Source of the DNA: Chloroflexota bacterium
GTDB taxonomy: Bacteria > Chloroflexota > Anaerolineae > Anaerolineales > Anaerolineaceae
DNA: 64,000 nt
Assembly: GCA_021779955.1 (NCBI GenBank)
Contig: JAJXZS010000035.1
Coordinates: 62,001 to 126,000, forward strand
Reading direction: 5' to 3'
Of the stretch, positions 24,082-43,557 are shown in pieces; within the stretch, counting starts at the first letter, position 1, and each line of letters opens with the position of its first letter. The translations under genes were made by a program, and so were the position numbers. The notes under the pieces were generated by a model. That model searched no databases, was not told where the DNA came from, and saw nothing but the letters and a program-made list of their open reading frames with translations.

Positions 24082-24095
24082 TTCAGGAGGTGCCC

Positions 24096-24422
24096 ATGCC
24101 AGAACCGTCCGGACCCCGCGCCATCGAGGGTGTCGAAAGCGAGATCGAACTGCTGCGCGCTCTGATTGATGGCGTTGCAGCGGGATTGAACACGCATAGC
24201 AAGCTGGCTGAAAAACTCAGCGTGCTCGAGGCCGTCGGACACGCCGCCCCGCAGCTTGCGCGCATGCTCAAAACCCAACGCGAACTTGCCACCGGCGATC
24301 TCGACCCGGCCGCCCTGCTCCGCGAGGCCCTGCTCGAACTTCAAGAAGAATGGCCCGAGTTCAAACTCTTCTGCACCGAATTCAAGCCCCAAAAGGAGGA
24401 GACCGTTGCCCCAGAATCGTGA
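24096..24422 (+). CDS. Small helical protein, first gene of phage cassette
   Basis: 108 residues from ATG 24096 with AGGAGGT 5 bp upstream; a GTG at 24090 overlaps the ribosome site and is rejected. Mostly alpha-helical: ELLRALIDGVAAGL ... LEKLSVLEAVGHAA-like ... RMLKTQREL. Position upstream of the large terminase suggests a small terminase subunit or a DNA-binding accessory, but no HTH is evident. Overlaps the next start. Confidence 0.6.
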   Translation: MPEPSGPRAIEGVESEIELLRALIDGVAAGLNTHSKLAEKLSVLEAVGHAAPQLARMLKTQRELATGDLDPAALLREALLELQEEWPEFKLFCTEFKPQKEETVAPES

Positions 24423-24585
24423 TTCAGCATCACTCACCCGCGAAGAGCGCGAAGCCCTGCGGTTTATGCGCTCATCCCATCGTAAGCACGCCGCCGAAGC
24501 CCGACTGAAGCGCGCCTTTGCGCAGACTCTGCTCGAGTTGCAGGCAAGGTTGGACCTCATCACCCGCACTTCCGGAGAATCATGA
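24406..24585 (+). CDS. Very small helical protein between cassette genes
   Basis: 59 residues; TTG start with a perfect AAAGGAGG 6 bp upstream (inside the previous gene). Sequence is charged and helical (LTREEREALRFMRSSHRKHA). Its stop overlaps the terminase start by 4 bp, so the three genes are translationally coupled. May be a second small terminase component; function unproven. Confidence 0.6.
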   Translation: MPQNRDSASLTREEREALRFMRSSHRKHAAEARLKRAFAQTLLELQARLDLITRTSGES

Positions 24586-26183
24586 TCGCGAACGCCTTCG
24601 TCCGCACCACACAGCGCCTGCTCCGTGACCCGCTTCTCTTTGTCAAAGCGGCTTCACGCATCAAACTGCGCAGCTATCAGCGCGAGGTCTTCGAAGCAGT
24701 CATCGACTCGGTTCTCCGGCGCAAAGGGCTCACCTTCGTGGTCATGTTCCCCAGGCAGTCAGGCAAGAACGAACTCCAGGCGCAAATCGAAACCTACCTG
24801 CTCTCGCTGTTCTCGCAGCTGCCCGTGGAGATGATCAAGGTCTCGCCGACCCTCAAACCCCAGGCGTTGACGGCGATGCGCCGCCTCGAGCGCACGGTCC
24901 GCAAGAACATCCTGGTAAGTGGATTGCTGCGCAAGGAAGGCGGCTCGCTCTACCGGCTTGGCAGCGCCTCGATCACTTTCCTCTCAGGCGCGCCTGAAAG
25001 CAATATCGTGGGCGCAACGGCATCCGTGCTGCTCGAGGTGGACGAAGCCCAGGACGTGCTCTGCGACAAGTTCGACAAGGACATCGCCCCAATGGCCGCA
25101 TCGACCAACGCCACCCGTATTTTTTGGGGCACGGCCTGGACGAGCCGCACCCTGCTCGGCCGCGAACTGCGCGCAGCGCGTGCTGCTGAAGCCGCCGATG
25201 CCATCCGCCGCGTCTTCGTCTGTACCGCCGATGAAGTGGCCGCCGAGGTGCCCGCTTACGCCAGGCATGTGCAGGAAGTGGTCAGCCGCCAGGGCCGCAG
25301 CCATCCCCTCGTGCGTACCCAGTACTTCTCCGAAGAGATCGACTCGCAGGGTGGCATGTTCCCGCCGGATCGCATCGCCCGGATCAGGCCGCAAGGCGCG
25401 CCATTCTCCGTTCCGCCTGCCGGGCCTAACCCCGGCAGGCAGTACGCCCTCCTGCTCGATGTGGCGGGCGAGGACGAAGGCGTGCGCGGGCTCGACGGCT
25501 CGCTCTCCCTGGCCAATCCATCCCGCGATGCAACGGCGCTCACACTGGTCGAAGTCTCGTTGCCCGAGCGAAACTTATCCACACCTGTGGACAAAGTTAT
25601 CCACACCCCTGTGGAAAACGCCGCGGCCGGCAGCCTGCCCTTCTACACCCCCGTCCGCCGCTGGCAGTGGATCGGCGCGGACCATAACGAACTGCTGCGC
25701 CAGATCAGGCAGATCGCGCTCGAGTGGCGTGCGCAGGCCGTCGTTGTCGATGCCACAGGCGTCGGCGCGGGGTTGGCATCGTTCCTCGAAAATGCCATGC
25801 CCGGGCGGGTGATCCCCTTCGTGTTCAACTCGGCTTCGAAGTCGAAACTGGGCTGGGACTTCCTGGCCGTGATCGACTCCGGCCGCTGGCGTGAACCGAG
25901 CTACAGCGCAGATCTCGTTGCCGCCGAGTCAACCCACCAGACGGAATTCATCCGCCAGCTCGAAAACTGCGCCTTCAGCGTCTCCACAGGACCCGAACAG
26001 CACATCCGCTGGGGCGTGCCGGACGGATCGCGCGACCCCTCAAGCGGCGATCTCCTGCACGACGATTGGATTCTCTCAGCCGCCCTCTGCACGCTGCTTG
26101 AAACGCGCAGTTGGTTCTCAGCGGCCCCTGCGCTGATCGTACCCGCCCCCGATCCGCTCAAAGCAACCGAAAGGAAGTACTAG
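24582..26183 (+). CDS. terL: Phage terminase large subunit
   Basis: 533 residues. N-terminal ATPase: MFPRQSGKNELQAQ (Walker A variant, residues ~55-68) and VLLEVDEAQDV (Walker B with catalytic Glu/Asp). C-terminal RNase H-like nuclease: YALLLDVAGED and AVVVDATGVGAG provide the acidic residues, with a last Asp in LLHDDWILSA. Packages DNA into the prohead through the portal. Between the two nuclease strands sits an insert (NLSTPVDKVIHTPVEN) whose DNA is a cluster of four DnaA-box-like sites (25575-25618). Translationally coupled to the small upstream gene. Confidence 0.9.
   Translation: MIANAFVRTTQRLLRDPLLFVKAASRIKLRSYQREVFEAVIDSVLRRKGLTFVVMFPRQSGKNELQAQIETYLLSLFSQLPVEMIKVSPTLKPQALTAMRRLERTVRKNILVSGLLRKEGGSLYRLGSASITFLSGAPESNIVGATASVLLEVDEAQDVLCDKFDKDIAPMAASTNATRIFWGTAWTSRTLLGRELRAARAAEAADAIRRVFVCTADEVAAEVPAYARHVQEVVSRQGRSHPLVRTQYFSEEIDSQGGMFPPDRIARIRPQGAPFSVPPAGPNPGRQYALLLDVAGEDEGVRGLDGSLSLANPSRDATALTLVEVSLPERNLSTPVDKVIHTPVENAAAGSLPFYTPVRRWQWIGADHNELLRQIRQIALEWRAQAVVVDATGVGAGLASFLENAMPGRVIPFVFNSASKSKLGWDFLAVIDSGRWREPSYSADLVAAESTHQTEFIRQLENCAFSVSTGPEQHIRWGVPDGSRDPSSGDLLHDDWILSAALCTLLETRSWFSAAPALIVPAPDPLKATERKY
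25575..25618. promoter_or_regulatory. Cluster of four DnaA-box-like sites inside terL
   Basis: Two perfect TTATCCACA (25575-25583, 25597-25605) alternate with TGTGGACAA (25586-25594) and TGTGGAAAA (25610-25618), each one or two bases from the inverted box. The sites form two head-to-head pairs within 44 bp of coding sequence. Binding is not shown. Confidence 0.5.
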
Positions 26184-26240
26184 CAAGAGTAATCAGGCAC
26201 CCAGGTCTTGGGCAATTAGGACAAACAGGCTAATTCAAGA

Positions 26241-26312
26241 CTCACCGCTCTTCCTGTTCACCAATCACAAGGACACTGAATACTGATTACTAATCACTAA
26301 TTACTGCTAACC
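26241..26312. repeat. Heptamer-period degenerate repeat inside phage cassette
   Basis: Ten units in phase: CTCACCG, CTCTTCC, TGTTCAC, CAATCAC ... CTGATTA, CTAATCA, CTAATTA. It fills the 162-bp spacer between terL and the lysozyme gene. Confidence 0.6.
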
Positions 26313-26345
26313 GACCCTTCTCCATTCTCATCACCCAGGAGTCCC

Positions 26346-26993
26346 ATGATCTACGGCATCGACGCAAGTCACTATCAAGAACTCATCGACTGGAAGAAAG
26401 TCAAATCCAGCGGCGTTGGCTTTGCCATCCTCAAGGCCAGCGAAGGCACAACCTATATCGACCCGATGTTCGAGCAGAACGTCCGCGGCGCGCTCGAAAA
26501 CGGCATCCTTCCGGGCAGCTATCACTTCTTCCTGCCTCGTCTTGACGCAGCCCAGCAGGCTCGTCACTACGCCGAAGTCCTCAAGTCCACCCTCGGCACG
26601 CGCGCCTGCCTGCCGCCCTGTATCGACCTTGAGACCGCAGGCCTCGGGCGTGAAGGGCTCAACCAGGCGGTCCAGGTCTTTCTGCATGAACTCGAAAGCC
26701 TCGCCGGGCGCCGCGGCATGATCTACACCTCGCCCGGCTTCTGGAACACCTATCTTCCTGTGCCCGTGCTCAGCGGCAACCGCCTTTTGCGCAGCAATGT
26801 CGATTGGGCCGTCGCGCATCCGCTCTGGCTGGCCCACTACACCACCGGCTGGCCTTCGCAGGTATACCCCTGGGCTGGTTGGACCTTCTGGCAGCATTCC
26901 AGCGGCGGACGCATCGGCGGCATCCGCACCCGCGTGGATCTCGATCTCTTCAACGGCAGCGCAGACGATCTGGCAGCCTTCAGCGGAGCTTAA
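26346..26993 (+). CDS. GH25 muramidase (endolysin)
   Basis: 215 residues, a single GH25 catalytic domain with no signal peptide or wall-binding repeats. GIDASHYQ near the start and PPCIDLET in the middle give the catalytic D-x-E pair; WLAHYTTGWP and FWQHSSGGR match later conserved strands. It cuts the beta-1,4 bond after N-acetylmuramic acid. No signal peptide fits release through the holin-like protein at 30579. Its place between terL and portal is unusual for an endolysin. Stop abuts the portal start. Confidence 0.88.
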   Translation: MIYGIDASHYQELIDWKKVKSSGVGFAILKASEGTTYIDPMFEQNVRGALENGILPGSYHFFLPRLDAAQQARHYAEVLKSTLGTRACLPPCIDLETAGLGREGLNQAVQVFLHELESLAGRRGMIYTSPGFWNTYLPVPVLSGNRLLRSNVDWAVAHPLWLAHYTTGWPSQVYPWAGWTFWQHSSGGRIGGIRTRVDLDLFNGSADDLAAFSGA

Positions 26994-28406
26994 ATGCCTC
27001 GAAAACCATCCTTTCTCTCACGCTGGTTTCGGCGTCAAATCGATCGCGAGGTGCGTGCCGCACTATCGGCATCCGATGACTTTTTCACGCTGGGGTCCCA
27101 CGGCAGCGCCTCTGACGTCGATCGCTACGCCCCCGACCGTGATCAGATCCTCGGCGATGCACTCGAAGCCTGGCGGGTAAACCCCCTCGCCAGGCGCATC
27201 GTCGGGCTGACCTCCCAATATGTGGTCGGCGGCGGCATCGCTTTTTCTATTGCGCACGCAGGCACGGCGGCTTTTCTAAAAAGCTTCTGGGAGCATCCGC
27301 TCAACCGCCTGCCGGTGCGGTTGTATGAATGGTGCGATGAACTCACCCGCAGCGGCAACCTCTTCCTGCTTGTCAGCAGCGATGCCGCCGGGATGAGTTA
27401 CATCCGCGCGGTACCGGCTGCCCAGGTCAAGGCCGTCCACACCCGCGAAAATGATATCGACCAGGAGATTTCCTTCGAGATGAAACCCGATCTCCTGGGC
27501 GGCGAGACCAAAATCTGGCCTGCCTTCGACGCTTCGATATCGCGCTCCGCAGACGGCTCCTTCCCGGCGCTGATGCTGCACTACACGATCAACCGTCCGG
27601 TGGGGGCTGTGTGGGGCGAGTCAGACCTCAGCCCCATCCTGCGCTGGCTCAGCCGCTACGGCAACTGGCTGGAAGATCGCGCCAGGCTCAATCACTTTCG
27701 CACTGCTTTCCTCTATATCGTCCGCTCGCGCTTCAGCTCTGAGGCGGAACGCAGGGCAAGGCAGGCCAGCCTGAACTCTGCCCCGCCTTCACCCGGTTCC
27801 ATCCTGGTGACAGACGAGGGCGAGACCTGGGACGTGTTGAACCCCGCTCTCGAATCCGACGACGCAGGCACAGACGGCATGGCGCTCAAGAAGATGCTGG
27901 CTGCGGGAGCGGGCATCCCCCTCCACTTCCTCGCTGAACCCGAAGGTTCCACGCGCACCACCGCCGAGGCCGCCGGCGGTCCAACCTACCGCCACTTCGA
28001 GCAGCGCCAGAAGTACTTCCTCTGGCTCGTCCAGGACCTGCTCAACAAGGTCGTCCAGCGCAGGGCGCAGGTCGATCACAGGGTGTCCACCCGGGCCGAG
28101 GTCCAGGTTCACGGCGCCGACATCTCGTCGCGCGACAACCTGTCGCTGGCGATGGCTGCCTCGAGCATCCTCAACGTGCTCGGCGAGACGCGCAGCCGAG
28201 GCCTCATCGACGATGCCGAGTTCCTGCGCCTGGTCTACCGCTTCAGCGGCGAAGCGGTCAACGTCGAAGACATGCTGGCCCGCGGGCGCGCTGCTGGAAA
28301 AGTCGCAGAGCTTCACCCGTCCGGACCTGGACCGGTGCAATCCACCAAAATCATCGACCCGTTGACCGGCGAACCCAAAACCGCCATCGAAGGAGGTCTC
28401 ATCTAG
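26994..28406 (+). CDS. Phage portal protein
   Basis: 470 residues. Begins basic (PRKPSFLSRWFRRQIDREV), then the portal core DALEAWRVNPLARRIVGLTSQYVVGGG, a stem/wing region and the C-terminal ARTRAEVQVHGADISSRDNLSLA-like segment with GAGIPLHFLAEPEGSTRTTAEAA, which matches portals of the Mu/HK97 group. Twelve copies would form the DNA channel where the terminase docks. Starts directly after the lysozyme stop and is followed without a gap by the protease-capsid gene. Confidence 0.85.
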   Translation: MPRKPSFLSRWFRRQIDREVRAALSASDDFFTLGSHGSASDVDRYAPDRDQILGDALEAWRVNPLARRIVGLTSQYVVGGGIAFSIAHAGTAAFLKSFWEHPLNRLPVRLYEWCDELTRSGNLFLLVSSDAAGMSYIRAVPAAQVKAVHTRENDIDQEISFEMKPDLLGGETKIWPAFDASISRSADGSFPALMLHYTINRPVGAVWGESDLSPILRWLSRYGNWLEDRARLNHFRTAFLYIVRSRFSSEAERRARQASLNSAPPSPGSILVTDEGETWDVLNPALESDDAGTDGMALKKMLAAGAGIPLHFLAEPEGSTRTTAEAAGGPTYRHFEQRQKYFLWLVQDLLNKVVQRRAQVDHRVSTRAEVQVHGADISSRDNLSLAMAASSILNVLGETRSRGLIDDAEFLRLVYRFSGEAVNVEDMLARGRAAGKVAELHPSGPGPVQSTKIIDPLTGEPKTAIEGGLI

Positions 28407-30311
28407 ATGGTATCGCAAAATGCATCCCCTTTCCGCCGTACTTTCTCGGCATCCGCCAGCGTCACGCCTGCCGGTGAATTCGAGATCCTGGCCATCAGCG
28501 CAGGCACAGGCAACGGCTGGGACTTTTCGCCCGAAGTCCTGCGCGAATTCCTACCCCTATGGGACCAGGTGGAAAGCTTCATCGATCACTCGTGGTCCGA
28601 GCGCTCCGTCCGCGACCTGGCCGGAGTTTGCACTTCGCCCGCCTGGGACGACGCGCGCAGCGGCATTCGCCTCACCCTCAAGGCCGTCGGCCCGGCAGCA
28701 GACCTGCTCGCCGAAACCGGCAGGATGTTTGCCTCAGGGCTACCGCCGCTTCCCGAGATCGGCTTTTCCGCCGACATCCTGTTCAGCGCCGAAGGAACTC
28801 GCGTCACACGCATCCGCAAAGTCTTTTCAGTCGACATGGTCGTCCACCCGGCCAGGGGCGGGGCCTTCATCCCAGCGGTCAATCCGGCCGCAGTCGAAAC
28901 CAGCCAGTTCAATTCAAAGGAGACATGCATGGAAAATCAAGAAGTTCAACCTCAACCCCTCGAGCGTGCCCAGTTGTGCGCTCCTGAAGCCGGCCGTACT
29001 GCCGATCTGCAGCTCGAAACCTGCGCCGGCCTGCTCACCGCCTCGCTGGCCGCTGCCAACCTGCCCGAAAAGATCGCTTCACGCATCCGCAGCCAGTTTG
29101 CCGGGAAGGTCTTCGAACCCGCCGCGCTGCAAACCGCCATCGACGATGCCCGCGACCTCGTCAGCGATCTCAATGCTGGCAACGTGATCCAGGGTCCCGG
29201 GCGCATCACGGACATGGTGTCTCCCGAAGACCAGATCAGCGCGGCCGTCCACGACATGCTCGGCGCCAGGCGTCCGGAAGGCCTCGAGAAGGTCAAGCCA
29301 GCGCGTCTAAGCGGCATCCGTGAGTTGTACCTGCGCATGACCGGCGACGACACTTTCAGCGGCGGCTATCACCCCGACCGGGCTCAATTTGCCGTCAGCG
29401 CGGACCTGCCAGGCGTGCTCAAGAACGCGATGAACAAGCTCATCATCGCCCAATGGGAAGAGCTCGGACGTTCGGGGTATCGCTGGTGGGAACCTGTGGT
29501 ACAGGTGGAGCACTTCAACAGCCTGCAGGAAATCACAGGCGTGCTGGTGGGCGAGGTGACCGTGCTGCCAACGGTCCTGGAAGGCGCGCCTTATACCGAG
29601 CTTGAAGTCAAAGACTCGGCCGAGACCGGCGCCTGGGCAAAGTACGGCGGCTACATCGGGCTTACCCTCGAAATGTTCGAGCGCGACGAAACGCACAAAC
29701 TGCGCCAGTATCCGCGCAAGCTCGCATCTGCTGCCCTGCGGCGCATTTCCAACCTGGTCGGCCAGGTCTTCACAGCAAATGCCGGGGTTGGGCCGGTCAT
29801 GGCAGACACATTCAACGTGTTCGATGCCGCTCACCATGCCAATGTCGGCACCTCAGCCTTGAGCGCGGACGCCTGGGAAGCCGCGGGCAAAGCCATCTAT
29901 AGCCAGCCCATGGCGGTTGCAGCGGGTGGCACCGCGCCCAAACTCGCCCTGGATGCCCGCTATCTCATCGTGCCCCGAGACCTGCGCCTGGCAGCCATGA
30001 ACCTGCTCTATCCATCTTTTGCGCACGAGAGCAGCATTTTCTCTGAGAACATGCAGAAGGGTCAGATGGGTGACGTGATCACCTGCCCCGAGTTCACCGA
30101 TGCAAACGATTGGGCAGCCGCGGCCGACCCGCAGCTCGCGCCGGGCATCATCGTCGCCGAACGCTTTGGCCTGCTCCCCGAGATCTTCATCGGCGATGGC
30201 GAACTCAACGGCGCCCTCTTCACCAACGACGAGATCCGCATGAAAGTCCGCCATCTCGTCAGCGTCTTCGTCGCCGATCACCGCCCGCTGTACAAAGCCA
30301 ACGTAGCCTAG
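28407..30311 (+). CDS. Prohead protease fused to major capsid protein, with internal start
   Basis: 634 residues. Residues 1-174 resemble a phage prohead serine protease: FIDHSWSERSVRDLAGV holds a candidate catalytic His and SADILF a candidate Ser. Residues ~175-290 are Gln/Leu-rich and scaffold-like. The rest is a Mu gpT/HK97-type capsid domain (YRWWEPVVQVEHFNSLQEI, FTANAGVGPVMADTFNVFD, VPRDLRLAAMNLLYPSF). AAAGGAG at 28916-28922 precedes an in-frame ATG at 28929, giving a second product of 460 residues that starts MENQEVQPQP. The long form would then supply the protease in small amounts and the short form the shell. Confidence 0.75.
   Translation: MVSQNASPFRRTFSASASVTPAGEFEILAISAGTGNGWDFSPEVLREFLPLWDQVESFIDHSWSERSVRDLAGVCTSPAWDDARSGIRLTLKAVGPAADLLAETGRMFASGLPPLPEIGFSADILFSAEGTRVTRIRKVFSVDMVVHPARGGAFIPAVNPAAVETSQFNSKETCMENQEVQPQPLERAQLCAPEAGRTADLQLETCAGLLTASLAAANLPEKIASRIRSQFAGKVFEPAALQTAIDDARDLVSDLNAGNVIQGPGRITDMVSPEDQISAAVHDMLGARRPEGLEKVKPARLSGIRELYLRMTGDDTFSGGYHPDRAQFAVSADLPGVLKNAMNKLIIAQWEELGRSGYRWWEPVVQVEHFNSLQEITGVLVGEVTVLPTVLEGAPYTELEVKDSAETGAWAKYGGYIGLTLEMFERDETHKLRQYPRKLASAALRRISNLVGQVFTANAGVGPVMADTFNVFDAAHHANVGTSALSADAWEAAGKAIYSQPMAVAAGGTAPKLALDARYLIVPRDLRLAAMNLLYPSFAHESSIFSENMQKGQMGDVITCPEFTDANDWAAAADPQLAPGIIVAERFGLLPEIFIGDGELNGALFTNDEIRMKVRHLVSVFVADHRPLYKANVA
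28916..28931 (+). promoter_or_regulatory. Internal ribosome binding site and start codon for capsid/scaffold product
   Basis: AAAGGAG (28916-28922), 6-nt gap, ATG 28929 in frame with the 28407 gene at codon 175. The match to the Shine-Dalgarno sequence is too good to be dismissed inside a GC-rich coding region. Confidence 0.6.
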
Positions 30312-30338
30312 TCTCGCATCTCGGTCTTCGCTCTTTAA
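30311..30338. repeat. Short heptamer-period repeat
   Basis: GTCTCGC, ATCTCGG, TCTTCGC, TCTTTAA in phase, starting at the capsid gene stop. Confidence 0.4.
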
Positions 30339-30365
30339 CATTCGGATAGCACCGTTCGGACCGGC

Positions 30366-30445
30366 TGTAGGGGTGAAGCATCGTGGAATTACGCAGGCAT
30401 CGATCAGGCATCACACAATCACGAAGCTTCACCCCGGCCGCGCCT
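30366..30445. repeat. Diverged extragenic palindrome
   Basis: GTAGGGGTGAAGC at the left pairs with GCTTCACCCC at about 30427-30436, enclosing ~45 bp. Same outer sequence style as the perfect palindrome at 13557. Confidence 0.45.
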
Positions 30446-30503
30446 CGAGGCTCCAACCGAATTACAGTAATTGTTTTGCATTTTCAATTCAATCTAAATC
30501 AAT

Positions 30504-30566
30504 TCGCGTTTCTCGCTTCCCGCTTCCCGCTTCTCGCTTCTCTCTTCTCTATTCTCTTCATTCAAA
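30504..30566. repeat. Heptamer-period degenerate repeat before holin-like gene
   Basis: CTCGCTT, CCCGCTT, CCCGCTT, CTCGCTT, CTCTCTT, CTCTATT, all in register. It runs to the AAAGGAG ribosome site of the 30579 gene. Confidence 0.65.
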
Positions 30567-30578
30567 GGAGTTCCTTCC

Positions 30579-30785
30579 ATGTCACTTCTCGATCAACTCA
30601 AGAGACTCATCCGCTCGCGCAAGTTCTGGGTCCTCATTGCCGCGCTGCTTGCCACGCTCGCCGCCTACTGCACCGCCCAGATCAGCGTCTGGCAGGCGCT
30701 TCAGGCGCTGGTGGCAGCCCTGGCGGTTTACTCCACAGGGGTCGCCCTGGAGGACAGCGGAAATGCCGCCAAAACCCGCTCCTGA
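30579..30785 (+). CDS. Holin-like two-helix membrane protein
   Basis: 68 residues: basic amphipathic start (LDQLKRLIRSRKFW), membrane helix 1 (VLIAALLATLAAYCTA), short turn, helix 2 (ALQALVAALAVYSTGVAL), polar tail. Size and topology fit phage holins, and a muramidase lacking a signal peptide lies in the same cassette. AAAGGAG precedes the ATG. Confidence 0.65.
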   Translation: MSLLDQLKRLIRSRKFWVLIAALLATLAAYCTAQISVWQALQALVAALAVYSTGVALEDSGNAAKTRS

Positions 30786-31113
30786 TCTGAAAATCGCTGC
30801 GGCCCTGGCAAAGCCATTCACTGCTGGAAAGGGGCGCGCCTCTGCGCCCCTCTCCTTCCGGATCCTTCCAGGCGGCGGCATGGTGGTGATCACTTCGGAT
30901 GGGCGCAAGCTCTGGTTCACCGCCGACGAAGTGGCCGCTGCGCGTGCCGAAATGGGCATGTCCGCACCAACAAATTCCACTTCGCCTTCACCTGCCCGCC
31001 AGACCTCCCGCTTCCGGCCCACCGGATTGCTGCCCCGGGAGACCAAACCGCGTTCCTACGACGGTATGCCCACGCTGATGGTCTTCCCGCCCAAACGCGA
31101 CAAACCCAAATGA
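30763..31113 (+). CDS. Unknown phage cassette protein
   Basis: 116 residues from ATG 30763, which overlaps the holin-like gene's end and follows GGAGG. Contains a compact beta unit FRILPGGGMVVITSDGRKLWFT and a Pro/Ser-rich linker, then LMVFPPKRDKPK at the end. No family recognised; placed in the head region, so a small structural or assembly role is plausible. Confidence 0.5.
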   Translation: MPPKPAPDLKIAAALAKPFTAGKGRASAPLSFRILPGGGMVVITSDGRKLWFTADEVAAARAEMGMSAPTNSTSPSPARQTSRFRPTGLLPRETKPRSYDGMPTLMVFPPKRDKPK

Positions 31114-31128
31114 TCCAGGGGGAACCCC

Positions 31129-31782
31129 ATGCTCACATTGACCGACATCATCAACCGTACCCGCACCGTCCTCAGCGATCCCGTTTCGCTTCGCTTCAGC
31201 GACGAACTCCTGCAGGAAGCCGTCAGCAACGCAATGCAGACCCTCAGCGACCGGCTCCCCAGGGAGGAGCACATCGATTTCATCGTCGCCATATCGGGGC
31301 GCAACCAGGCGCTCGCAGGCCTGGCTTTGCCGCTGTATCTCATCGACATCCGCATCTCGATCCTGCCGGATGATGAAACCGTTCTCGAACCCGACCTGCA
31401 CTTCACCTATCGCATGATCGATGGCCAGCCGGTGATCCACTTCCTCGGCGAGCTTATCCCCCAGGCAGGCCAGACGCTGCAGGTTGCCTATGCCGCCTGC
31501 CAGACCCTGAGCGGTCTTGATGGCGCCGACACGTCTACTCTGCCTGATGGCGCATTTACCGCCCTGGTCAACGGCGCTGCCGGGCACGCCTGCCTCCTGC
31601 GCTCGCACATGCTGCTCGAGACGAGCGGCGTCAAGCCGGGCGAAGTCGACCATCTGCTCCAGCTCGCCCAGCTTCGCCTGGATCTCTTCGAGAAGAACCT
31701 GGACGACCTGCGCATCTATCAGGAATTCGGTTTTCCCCAGGGCTTCACCCTCGACAAGTGGGATAACCACGGAGTGTTCTAA
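31129..31782 (+). CDS. Head-tail connector/adaptor-like protein
   Basis: 217 residues. N-terminal helices (LTDIINRTRTVLSDP..RFSDELLQEAVSNAMQTLS) with the pattern 'D-x-x-L-x-x-x-I-N-x-A' common in phage adaptor proteins of the gp6/DUF-type, then a beta middle part and C-terminal helices (LLQLAQLRLDLFEKNLDDL). GGGGGA before the ATG. Would sit below the portal ring. Confidence 0.5.
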   Translation: MLTLTDIINRTRTVLSDPVSLRFSDELLQEAVSNAMQTLSDRLPREEHIDFIVAISGRNQALAGLALPLYLIDIRISILPDDETVLEPDLHFTYRMIDGQPVIHFLGELIPQAGQTLQVAYAACQTLSGLDGADTSTLPDGAFTALVNGAAGHACLLRSHMLLETSGVKPGEVDHLLQLAQLRLDLFEKNLDDLRIYQEFGFPQGFTLDKWDNHGVF

Positions 31783-32261
31783 TGCCTACGATCGGTATGG
31801 ACTGTCATATCACCCTGACTCATCCGAGCGTAAACGGCGGCCTGTCTTACGGCTTCCTCGTCGACGAGGAAGAAAAGGGCACGCGCCCGGGCGGTGTGCA
31901 GATCACCCGCGAGGTCATGACAGACGGCACAACCGTCTACGTCCTCTTCGACATCATCCTCGCTGATCATGCGATCAATCCAGATGGCAGCCCCCACGCC
32001 GCAGACCGCAGCCACGACTACACCATGCTCCTGCAGTATCTCGCGCAGATCTCAAGCATTCAGCTGCTTACCCCGGTCGGCCTGCTCGCCAACCTTTTCG
32101 CTGTCGGATTCACCGCAGACGAGCGCCACTTGCCTAAATCATCCCTCGTCAAATGCCAACTCAACAACTCAGGCATCTACTGGCCGCCGGTTCCACAAGC
32201 AAAATTCACAGCCTCAATCTGGGACGGCATTCTCACCTGGGGTACGTCCTATTGGAGATAA
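31782..32261 (+). CDS. Unknown late structural-type protein
   Basis: 159 residues; start overlaps the previous stop (TAATG). Beta-rich, with DCHITLTHPSVNGGLSYGFLVDEEE near the start. No domain recognised. Position after the connector suggests a tail or neck component, but nothing in the sequence proves it. Confidence 0.5.
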   Translation: MPTIGMDCHITLTHPSVNGGLSYGFLVDEEEKGTRPGGVQITREVMTDGTTVYVLFDIILADHAINPDGSPHAADRSHDYTMLLQYLAQISSIQLLTPVGLLANLFAVGFTADERHLPKSSLVKCQLNNSGIYWPPVPQAKFTASIWDGILTWGTSYWR

Positions 32262-32264
32262 CCT

Positions 32265-33029
32265 ATGTCATATCCGCTCAGCTCCCCTGTTACATCCGGT
32301 CAGCCCACCTTCGCGGCCCACTACAACAACCTTCGGCTCGATGCGCTTTCCTTCGGCCAGGCTGAGGCTGATGTCGTCCCGCCTGGCACTTTCCTTAAGC
32401 GCTTCGCCCAGGGCATCACCCTTGTTTATCTCGCCACCAACCGGCTCCGCATTCCCTACAACCCCCTCAACCCGCCCACCCTCATGATCAACGGCTGCAT
32501 GCTTCAAACTGCTGCCAACGTCGATCTTCCCGCCGGTCTATTCTCAGGCTTGGCTGCCACCTGGTACATCTTCGCCGTGCGCACCCCTGGCTCCACCACC
32601 TTCACCCTATCCGTCAACACCTCGCCTATTGAAACCACAGACCAACGGCTCATCGGTCAATGTACCTGGGATGGCATAAAGGTTACCTTTGTCTACACCA
32701 CCGTTAACTCTGATCATCAACTCACCGATCCTGATTATGATTCTGGTTGGTTCGCAGTGGCTTGCAATTCGCTGTTCACTAAGGCTCATGGCCTGCTGCA
32801 GTGGCCGCGCCTGGTTGTCCTTCTGCATTCCAATGTCGCCGAAGGCAACGAAGAGTGGATACCGGTCACAGTGATCCAGAACGGCGCGAACGTCGAAAAG
32901 AGCGCCTATGGTTGGTCCTCTGCCAATGTCTATTGCAGTTCTGGTGTAGACCTGGCCAGTTCGGGCACGTGCTGGTCCACCCGCCGTGCTTCAAACGTTG
33001 GTTATTGGCGCGTTCTCGCCTGGAAGTGA
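32265..33029 (+). CDS. Unknown late structural-type protein, possible appendage
   Basis: 254 residues. The opening VTSGQPTFAAHYNNLRLDAL resembles the start of several uncharacterised phage tail/appendage proteins; the remainder is beta-rich with five Cys. GGAGAT lies before the ATG. If the cassette makes particles, this is a candidate host-contact protein. Confidence 0.5.
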   Translation: MSYPLSSPVTSGQPTFAAHYNNLRLDALSFGQAEADVVPPGTFLKRFAQGITLVYLATNRLRIPYNPLNPPTLMINGCMLQTAANVDLPAGLFSGLAATWYIFAVRTPGSTTFTLSVNTSPIETTDQRLIGQCTWDGIKVTFVYTTVNSDHQLTDPDYDSGWFAVACNSLFTKAHGLLQWPRLVVLLHSNVAEGNEEWIPVTVIQNGANVEKSAYGWSSANVYCSSGVDLASSGTCWSTRRASNVGYWRVLAWK

Positions 33030-33035
33030 GCAGCT

Positions 33036-33431
33036 ATGACATTCATCATCCGTAATTCAGATCGCACAATCAAGACATTCGCCGAGCGCGTCGATGATTT
33101 CATTCTCGCACCAGGTGAAACCATTGACTCATCACCCCTCTCCTTCGCTGAGTACGCCGCCCGCCTCAGCCTTTCGGTCAATGGCCGCACAGGTGTAATC
33201 ATCCGTGTCGCGTCCGGTGCGCCGGCGGTAGTCGTTGACGTGTCATGCCCGGGTGAGTCGGAAGTGGATCTCGATGTCAACGGCCTCCCTGAATCGCTGC
33301 AGCTCGTCGACGGCAAGGCACAACTGATCCTCTCCACCGAAACGCCTGGCGTTTTCATCATCCAGCCTGCAGACCGCACAGTCTACGCCCCTGCCGGCAA
33401 TTCCTTCCTTACCGTCGAGGTGACACTATGA
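33036..33431 (+). CDS. Unknown beta-rich cassette protein
   Basis: 131 residues made of alternating short strands (GVIIRVASGAPAVVVDV, AQLILSTETPGVFII), ending in SFLTVEVTL. Like a small capsid-decoration or fibre-domain protein, but unassigned. Stop overlaps the next start (ATGA). Confidence 0.45.
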   Translation: MTFIIRNSDRTIKTFAERVDDFILAPGETIDSSPLSFAEYAARLSLSVNGRTGVIIRVASGAPAVVVDVSCPGESEVDLDVNGLPESLQLVDGKAQLILSTETPGVFIIQPADRTVYAPAGNSFLTVEVTL

Positions 33432-33622
33432 AAAATGTTGAAAAACGCGGAAATGTGTTTTGTCTCATTCCGGATGCCGCAGAACACCTGGCAGATGAGG
33501 CTCGCGCATCACACTCGCAAGATTGTGCAGTTCTTGAAAGCGGCAGCGCCAGTGTCGAATCCATCACCGCCATCCTGCTCCATCTGGCCAGCAGGCTCCT
33601 CATCCTGGAACAGCGCATGTAA
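33428..33622 (+). CDS. Small unknown protein, last gene of cassette
   Basis: 64 residues, helical at the C-terminus (ESITAILLHLASRLLILEQRM). GAGGTGA and the 4-bp overlap couple it to the previous gene. The hydrophobic heptad pattern could be a coiled coil. Function unknown. Confidence 0.45.
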   Translation: MKNVEKRGNVFCLIPDAAEHLADEARASHSQDCAVLESGSASVESITAILLHLASRLLILEQRM

Positions 33623-33677
33623 ACACCCCGACTAAACATCTTGTCGAATTTACGATACAATTGAACCGAGGTGTTAT

Positions 33678-34337
33678 ATGGCATCGCGACTGTATGTGCC
33701 CTATCTTGCGCTCAGATCTGCTGATAAAGACGAGTTGGTCGTCAATCCACCGGCGTATTGTTCGCATTGCAGCACCATTCCTGCCGAATATTACGAGACT
33801 CACGTTGTCAGGCTGCGGGCAAACCGAATTCCACACCGTTCGATCGGTCGAAAATTCCGCACCGAAAAGAAACTCATCGTACGCCTGCCGCTTTGCCGGG
33901 CTTGCTACCTCAACGATTATCTCACCTCGCCGGATGCCTACACTCACGATGATACCCCATTGGGTAAGGAAGCCAGGCGCACCACGTTGCTTTCGAACAT
34001 TTCTGGATTTACCGCCTCGATTGGGATTCTGTTGATCACCCCTTTCATCCCTGCCCTGGGCATACTCGCCTTCATCAAGTCCTACTGGTACGTTCTGGTA
34101 TCCCTCGGGTTCGTGATTCTGGCGGTGGCCTGGCTGCTTCAAAGAAGATCGATGCAGGCGGTCCGTGCCGAACTTGCGTCGCTGCGTCCAGGAGGATCCA
34201 AATACCCCCGTGCCCTGGTCTGGAACACACCCGTCGAAGGCGACTTGGAGTCGGGCAGCGTCATCCTCGAGATGAACATCGAAAATGAGACCTGGGCGGG
34301 TGATTGCGCCCGTATGAACGTCTGGCGGATCGAATAG
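33678..34337 (+). CDS. Unknown membrane protein with two CxxC pairs
   Basis: 219 residues. Cytoplasmic N-terminal domain with YCSHCSTIP and LPLCRACYLNDY, likely one zinc site; two membrane helices around 115-160; then a soluble tail (EGDLESGSVILEMNIENETWA). GAGGTG precedes ATG 33678. First apparent host gene after the phage cassette. Confidence 0.6.
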   Translation: MASRLYVPYLALRSADKDELVVNPPAYCSHCSTIPAEYYETHVVRLRANRIPHRSIGRKFRTEKKLIVRLPLCRACYLNDYLTSPDAYTHDDTPLGKEARRTTLLSNISGFTASIGILLITPFIPALGILAFIKSYWYVLVSLGFVILAVAWLLQRRSMQAVRAELASLRPGGSKYPRALVWNTPVEGDLESGSVILEMNIENETWAGDCARMNVWRIE

Positions 34338-34393
34338 GCAGCCAAACAGCCTATTTGACCGAATTCGAAGTGCAAACAGAAAGGATCTGACCC

Positions 34394-35041
34394 ATGAGAG
34401 CCATTTTGACCGATGAATCGACCCCCGTGTTCGCCGGCACCGAAGATCAATCTCTCTCGCTTGCCACCCTCCATCGCGATGAAGAATTCGAGCTTGGCAA
34501 CGTCACCCGCCAAAAAAGGAAGGTTTGGGTGGAAGTGACCCTCGATTCGGGAACCAGGGGGTATATCAGCGGCGATGCGCATATCTTTGCTCTCAAGAAG
34601 GTTCAACTCCTCGATTCAGAAGCTGACATGCGCGCGGAACCATCAAAAGGGTCTGCGCTGGTGAAAGTCATGCGCAAGGGAGATACCTTCCTCACGCTGA
34701 AAGTTGAAAAGACCGATGAGGGCGGTTGGGTGCGTGTGCGCGACCAGACCGACACGGAAGGCTACATCGCTGGCGGAACCAAGATCCGCATCCTGCAGCA
34801 GGTGCGCAAAGCAGACGCGCGCCGTACTTTGATCCTTGGCGGTTTGATGGCGGTCATTGGCATCGCTTTTGGCGTCTTCAGTTATCTCGGAAAACAGCAG
34901 GATACCATCTCTTACTATTTGGCTCTCGGTTTCATCATCTTCGGCGTTCTGCAACTCGCCCAGGGCTACATCCAATACCGGCAGGCGGTTGCCCAGGAGA
35001 AACAGGAACCCCAAAAGCCGGGTGGTTTTCAGACCAAATGA
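34394..35041 (+). CDS. Protein with two SH3-like repeats and C-terminal membrane helices
   Basis: 215 residues. Two SH3-type beta units: about 5-62 (TPVFAGTEDQS ... WVEVTLDSGTRGYISG) and 66-130 (ADMRAEPSKGSALVKVMRKGDTF ... WVRVRDQTDTEGYIAGG). Two membrane helices follow (145-165 and 172-192), then a basic tail. AAAGGA upstream, terminator directly downstream. No signal peptide, so the SH3 units may face the cytoplasm. Confidence 0.6.
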   Translation: MRAILTDESTPVFAGTEDQSLSLATLHRDEEFELGNVTRQKRKVWVEVTLDSGTRGYISGDAHIFALKKVQLLDSEADMRAEPSKGSALVKVMRKGDTFLTLKVEKTDEGGWVRVRDQTDTEGYIAGGTKIRILQQVRKADARRTLILGGLMAVIGIAFGVFSYLGKQQDTISYYLALGFIIFGVLQLAQGYIQYRQAVAQEKQEPQKPGGFQTK

Positions 35042-42627: not shown

Positions 42628-43557
42628 TTGGCAAACCAAAGCGATAAAAAGCAGTGGATTAACCTAAACTCGCAGGATCCATTACTTGCGAGCCTGGACG
42701 CATTCCGGCAGGACCGTAAAGCCCAGAACATGGCGCCTGGAACGCTGTACTTCTATCATGCAAAGTTGTCAATGTTCACTCGCTTTTGTGATGAGCAGGG
42801 GGTGGATAGTGTCAGTCAGATCGATGCGGATTTACTCAGGTGCTTTATGATCTGGTTGGAAGAGACAGGTCATAACCCAGGCGGGCAGCACACATTCTAC
42901 CGGGCGGTCAAAACCTTTCTCAAATGGTACGAACGCGAAAACGAACCGCAAGGATGGAATAACCCCATAGACCGGGTAAAAGCCCCCAGGCTGCCTGTAC
43001 AGCCCCTGGAGCCCGTTTCACTGGATACAGTGAGGATACTGTTAGGTCAATGCCCTGCAGACCTTACAGGCACGCGGGACCGCGCGATGATACTCTTTTT
43101 ACTGGATACCGGCTGCAGGGCGAACGAGGCGCTATCCGTGACCCTGCAGGATGTCAATATCGTTTCGGGTGAAGTGATCATTACCAGTGGCAAGGGTGGA
43201 AAACCGCGTTTCGTGTACCTGGGAAGAACCGCCCGAAAAGCCCTAAGAGATTACCTACACAAACGAAAGGACAGAGCCCGTGAATTATGGATCACCAGGG
43301 ACGGTACGGGTTTGACCTATGCGGGATTACGCTCCATGATCACCCGGCGTGCGCGTCAAGCCAACATCGGTCCGCCGCAGCTCCATGCGTTTAGGCGGGC
43401 ATTCGCATTGAATATGCTCAGGAACGGCACGGATATTTTCACCCTGCAGCGTCTCATGGGGCATGCAGACATTCAAATGCTCAGGCGATACCTGGCACAA
43501 ACAAGTGAGGATTTACAGGCTGCCCACCACCGGGCAAGCCCTGGTGATTCACTATAA
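42628..43557 (+). CDS. int: Tyrosine recombinase (integrase) of the element
   Basis: 309 residues; TTG start with GGGAG 7 bp upstream. N-terminal SAM-like core-binding domain (about 15-100), then the catalytic domain with every key residue: Arg in DTGCRANEAL, Lys in TSGKGGKPRF, H-x-x-R in LHAFRRAF, His in LMGHADIQ and the nucleophile Tyr in RRYLAQT. No arm-binding N-terminal extension, like XerC/D-size enzymes. Lies 65 bp from attL, so it very likely moves this element in and out of tRNA-Lys. A 17-bp sequence at its 5' end (42646) recurs near attR (46428). Confidence 0.93.
   Translation: MANQSDKKQWINLNSQDPLLASLDAFRQDRKAQNMAPGTLYFYHAKLSMFTRFCDEQGVDSVSQIDADLLRCFMIWLEETGHNPGGQHTFYRAVKTFLKWYERENEPQGWNNPIDRVKAPRLPVQPLEPVSLDTVRILLGQCPADLTGTRDRAMILFLLDTGCRANEALSVTLQDVNIVSGEVIITSGKGGKPRFVYLGRTARKALRDYLHKRKDRARELWITRDGTGLTYAGLRSMITRRARQANIGPPQLHAFRRAFALNMLRNGTDIFTLQRLMGHADIQMLRRYLAQTSEDLQAAHHRASPGDSL

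Follow-up and report, generated by a model that had tools for sequence, protein, structure and literature searches.

A compact array of four DnaA-box-like sites, carried within the codons of a phage-type large terminase gene in the 64,000-nucleotide stretch of DNA analysed here (the window), is a variant of the DnaA-box clusters found outside oriC, and is linked to a cassette resembling a GTA. The preferred reading of the sequence, held at a probability of about one half, is that the four boxes constitute a genuine DnaA-responsive control site serving either regulation or titration. Clusters of this kind away from oriC are known to serve in control; the literature searched did not report them as recurring in a domesticated phage packaging cassette. 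If real, the array would connect the replication clock of bacteria, in a way open to test, with a GTA-like element in Chloroflexota.

The box array and the loop that houses it

The sequence-only reading had reported four such sites in 44 bp inside the terminase gene, and all four were confirmed, beginning at 25575, 25586, 25597 and 25610. Two are perfect DnaA boxes, TTATCCACA, on the forward strand, the first (25575–25583) spelt by the codons for LST and the second (25597–25605), 22 bp from the first, by those for VIHT. The other two are inverted boxes with one mismatch each, TTGTCCACA (25586–25594) and TTTTCCACA (25610–25618), both on the reverse strand. The encoded peptide, NLSTPVDKVIHTPVEN, forms part of a 533-residue open reading frame (24582–26183, forward strand), and no further box with one mismatch or fewer was found between 24 and 36 kb of the window. 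To our knowledge, regulation by DnaA in Chloroflexota has not been established for boxes that alternate between strands within a gene, a point that counts against the preferred reading.

The product of this frame was assigned to Terminase_6C by Pfam and to the terminase large subunit by PHROG, with fold matches to the terminases of T4 (gp17), HK97, Sf6 and D6E. Comparison with its nearest relative, L034, gave a dN of 0.18 and a dS of 1.46 (ratio ~0.12), from which the protein is judged to be under purifying selection. In an AlphaFold2 model with a mean pLDDT of 87, the box codons fall in a loop that connects two nuclease-domain strands (residues 327–353) and is predicted to be disordered, pLDDT being below 50 over most of residues 333–348. 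The model and the family alignment together place the codons of this hypervariable loop at 25560–25640 on the forward strand. The array had initially been taken for part of an insert in the nuclease domain, a description that agrees with the much shorter loops of most genus relatives, those of L039 and L041 being long. However, the loop of the next relative, L080, is about as long as that of the window and unrelated to it in sequence, which weakens the case for a discrete insertion; the box region is instead a hypervariable expanded loop.

Just before the strand that precedes this loop, the nuclease domain of two other terminases is interrupted by repeat-like peptides (LPELVEGR in L032 and SPSGRGQGEG in L082), which suggests that in-frame repeat insertions are tolerated there. 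Those peptides, and the fact that the array can be read as two imperfect copies of a palindromic unit of 22–24 bp, favour the view that a small palindromic mobile repeat with DnaA-like boxes was inserted in frame into the loop. Such an insertion is nevertheless very improbable, since the paired-box unit has no other match within two mismatches in the host genome, is scarcely ever found across 61 family genomes, and has a spacer unlike that of the corresponding pair at the host oriC. A dispersed repeat was rejected on the first two of these grounds, and a copy of the host oriC on the third, the spacing being equal and the spacer different.

Rarity in the host genome and comparison with the oriC-like site

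Pattern searches of the 2.83-Mb host genome, whose closest homologues lie in Anaerolineaceae, Chloroflexota, returned 33 perfect boxes, and two or more within 100 bp were found at only two places in the whole genome: the terminase array and an oriC-like cluster (contig C12:2698–3000; locus L194 of genome G000). The latter, whose perfect boxes span C12:2698–2880, comprises five perfect and further near boxes with adjoining AT-rich DNA, its maximum AT content over 50 bp being 0.74 as against 0.50 at the window array, and is the probable host oriC, sited away from dnaA (contig C30). It is flanked by a nucleotidyltransferase-like ORF, and an ORF of the same kind flanks the cluster in G027.

The window boxes match the host oriC box and are clustered away from the oriC-like site, as are those of datA and the DBCs, and a direct box pair 22 bp apart is common to both places. 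Direct pairs with a gap of up to 30 bp are present in at least 93 of 121 family genomes; among the matches listed, most genomes have a single cluster or a few, with a spacing that is mostly 21–22 bp, so that the spacing of the window pair is normal for DnaA sites in this family.

The suggestion that such an arrangement would seldom arise by chance in coding DNA was borne out by recoding. When the 16-residue peptide was recoded with local codon usage, two perfect boxes appeared in 0.24% of trials, and among 300 recodings of the whole gene none contained two perfect boxes and none contained four boxes of one mismatch or fewer in 44 bp.

A terminase is often found close to the oriC-like cluster. 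The distance was 2.4 kb in G027 (locus L303, contig C8), 50 kb in G114, 70 kb in G085, 122 kb in G034 and 181 kb in G082, though ~590 kb in G136; these values are biased by the need for both features to sit on one contig.

Conservation of the boxes at the DNA level

The terminase gene of L034 (78% amino acid identity) retains both perfect boxes and the last inverted box; the middle box is lost together with its peptide, PVD having become TGE. The outcome was thus the opposite of one in which homologues keep the peptide and lose the boxes, a possibility raised when the array was first noticed: here the boxes persist as the peptide between them changes. Where the residue is the same, 12 of 12 codons across the array are identical, compared with 47.8% over the gene (0.478 to the power 12 being about 1e-4). 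Taken alone, this identity is moderate sequence evidence for conservation of the DNA, because one other stretch of the gene equals the array in its count of identical codons per 15-codon window.

The question of whether boxes occur in other terminases was answered by L093 and L105 (52% amino acid identity to the window), each of which has a pair of perfect boxes, spaced 22 bp apart, at the site that aligns with the array. Between these two, all nine same-residue codons across the pair are identical as against 49.6% elsewhere, at a dS of about 1.4. The family peptide at this place, VDLSTLxDxLI, already lends itself to spelling the box pair, so that its shared position in the window and in L093/L105 can be a product of convergence, and the case for conservation comes mainly from the one close pair, the window and L034. 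Few family members have histidine at the second box, and none but the four carriers combine it with LST; all four also keep a rare TTA codon. Boxes are absent from the terminase of the other genus members, including the closest relatives besides L034, and some 120 other terminases have neither the boxes nor the peptide in the gene.

These comparisons bear directly on whether the boxes are a functionless by-product of a neutrally drifting loop, aided by the family peptide LSTxxDxxI. The hypervariability and predicted disorder of the loop, the lack of boxes in the gene of most relatives, and the inspection of more than 100 terminases for an event seen in 0.24% of recodings given the peptide would all accord with such an origin. 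By way of contrast, the identity of all 12 codons within an otherwise drifting loop, the TTA codon common to all carriers, the enrichment of clusters at other positions of the cassette (see below), and the fact that, besides the oriC-like site, this is the only such place in the genome combine to make a by-product rather unlikely.

The cassette as a vertically inherited, GTA-like element

The terminase gene belongs to a packaging and capsid cassette (24090–35041, forward strand) conserved across the genus, which comprises a small ORF, the terminase, a GH25 lysozyme, a portal, a capsid-protease, an adaptor, further ORFs and an SH3 protein. No integrase or replication gene was recognised within 24090–35041. 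An integrase-family gene lies at 42628–43557, ~8 kb beyond the cassette.

The neighbourhood shared within the genus consists of an ABC-transporter pair plus SatD/DUF3307 upstream and an aminotransferase region downstream; G004 and G011 keep both flanks, and other genus members one. Of 61 high-quality family genomes, 54 have the terminase, with hardly any carrying more than one copy. The terminase tree recovers the multi-species genera, its deeper branches differing, and terminase and DnaA distances were correlated (Mantel r 0.78; none of 5000 permutations as high). Because of this shared neighbourhood, the wide occurrence of the terminase, nearly always as a single copy, and a tree that follows host DnaA, the cassette is considered to show the pattern of a domesticated, vertically inherited, GTA-like element. 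Two features expected of a GTA were accordingly found: packaging and head genes held together in a vertically inherited cassette, and the absence of integration and replication genes of its own among the genes recognised there. No Chloroflexota GTA was described in the literature searched.

Both RcGTA and BaGTA offer a likeness in their vertically inherited packaging and capsid cassette with no recognised integrase or replication gene; the present cassette differs from them in phylum and in carrying DnaA boxes within the cassette itself, and is known from its genes alone.

Decay of the cassette is also seen in some species: the terminase appears to be broken by a stop and a frame change in G003 (L030/L080), and in G012 to survive as a fragment (C48:23884–24060). 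Judging by their gene content, some loci are probably true prophages; the ORFs upstream in L159 were read as integrase-like and methyltransferase-like.

Recurrence of box clusters across related cassettes

Across 129 related loci, 44 perfect boxes were counted, whereas permuted boxes averaged 6.9. The excess was greatest just after the terminase (10 boxes as against 0.4 expected in 117 non-redundant loci), and clusters of boxes were found in 11 of the 117, where 0.025 were expected (200 permuted boxes, maximum 1). Arrays just after the terminase include four perfect boxes in L053, three boxes in L090, box-like sites at a spacing of ~12 bp in L049, L110 and L114, and those of L131 and L133. The cultured Anaerolineaceae species Pelolinea submarina has its own array at this place. 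About nine in ten cassettes lack a cluster, among them those of the closest genus relatives besides L034, from which it follows that the site is dispensable.

An independent test at the level of genomes located six clusters within 7 kb of a terminase as against 0.37 expected. As the cluster in G027 is itself oriC-like, it was not counted as independent, leaving five; the window is the discovery case, and without it and G027 four terminase-near clusters remain. The five lie inside the terminase (the window), after the terminase (G100), at the 3′ end of the portal gene (G098), after the capsid gene (G023, with four boxes at a period of 21 bp) and after g30 (G123). Clusters thus occur in differing genes, in differing frames and in non-coding DNA, which indicates that selection has acted on the DNA rather than on the peptide; a motif at the peptide level was rejected on the same grounds. 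These sequence comparisons support a DNA-level DnaA function tied to the cassette.

The interpretation in the sequence-only reading is thereby partly supported. Of the roles it proposed, namely titration of DnaA, a link between packaging and replication, and a packaging start, the last gained no specific support. The array would in that case be a pac or cos-like site recognised either by DnaA or by the machinery for packaging, as its nearness to the terminase gene in several lineages might lead one to expect. However, the clusters wander from upstream of the terminase to beyond the capsid gene and are missing from most cassettes, and their sequence fits the host DnaA box rather than any motif specific to the cassette, all of which makes a packaging start highly improbable.

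Proposed role of the array and models for it

The datA and DARS sites of Escherichia coli and the DBCs of Bacillus subtilis are clusters of DnaA boxes outside oriC that act on the timing of initiation, and in known clusters of this kind the boxes are conserved while the spacers diverge. The window likewise has several close, near-perfect boxes away from oriC. Boxes are kept with a changing spacer in L034 and within the L093/L105 pair but are absent in other genus members. Unlike datA and the DBCs, the window array is carried by codons for a loop of a phage-type terminase and occurs in few species of the genus; its likeness to datA and DARS is drawn from the boxes, not from an IHF site or from a role in ATP hydrolysis or rejuvenation. 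With these provisos, datA and the B. subtilis clusters serve as working models for control or titration.

For such a control site, the host initiator DnaA would bind the two perfect boxes and the two weaker inverted ones, housed in the codons of a disordered loop where the DNA could vary without harm to the protein. Bound DnaA might then repress or block transcription through the late operon or, alternatively, the array might titrate DnaA, and in consequence either the activity of the cassette or the timing of host initiation would follow the state of replication. The boxes themselves, their conservation as DNA in L034, the enrichment in cassettes and the vertical inheritance can be read directly from the sequences; both the binding of DnaA and its regulatory or titrating consequence are what we infer from them. 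The window array would on this basis be one case of a wider habit of these cassettes, that of holding a DnaA-box array somewhere within, and enrichment above chance suggests that the block is wired to host replication control. A bolder proposal, which we regard as speculative, is that Anaerolineaceae possess a family-wide, undescribed GTA in which repeatedly arisen DnaA-box arrays couple particle production or local DNA amplification to initiation.

Possible origins and origin-like arrays

The arrays might instead be DnaA-dependent origins, or remnants of origins, of the phage ancestral to the cassette, at which boxes and iterons start regional amplification. The model here is the GTA of Bartonella (BaGTA), which is tied to replication through a phage-derived run-off replication origin; the origin of a prophage is another parallel. 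Several arrays adjoin AT-rich DNA, and CGGAA-N-TTCCG palindromes go with the arrays that follow the terminase in L053, L095 and L101. A gene upstream of the terminase contains a box palindrome in both L144 and L159, the L144 product being like an HTH regulator or initiator. At the window array, however, no AT-rich stretch was found within 400 bp (maximum 50-bp AT content 0.50) and no CGGAA-N-TTCCG palindrome was found near it, and the cassette, as described above, contains no recognised replication gene. Overall, an origin is a possible but somewhat unlikely explanation of the arrays. For the window array, an origin was set aside as improbable because both AT-rich DNA and the palindromes are missing, and the first of these gaps points to control or titration instead; related arrays elsewhere may be origins now or may formerly have been so.

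DnaA-dependent origins of phages and plasmids often lie inside the initiator gene. The present arrays resemble them in placing DnaA boxes in phage-type DNA and, in L144 and L159, in a gene upstream of the terminase; the window differs from them in that neither an AT-rich unwinding stretch nor iterons nor an initiator gene was found.

In L053, L095 and L101, several of the CGGAA-N-TTCCG palindromes stand beside the boxes, no more than 600 bp after the terminase, at a density of ~0.17 per kb compared with 0.007–0.037 elsewhere; these could be iterons or regulator sites. The genes upstream of the terminase in L144 (5309–5980) and L159 (998–1741) share an identical box palindrome, TTATCCACAGGCCCTGTGGATAA, encoding the peptide ELSTGPVDNS, and each palindrome may mark a phage origin that lies within the gene for an initiator.
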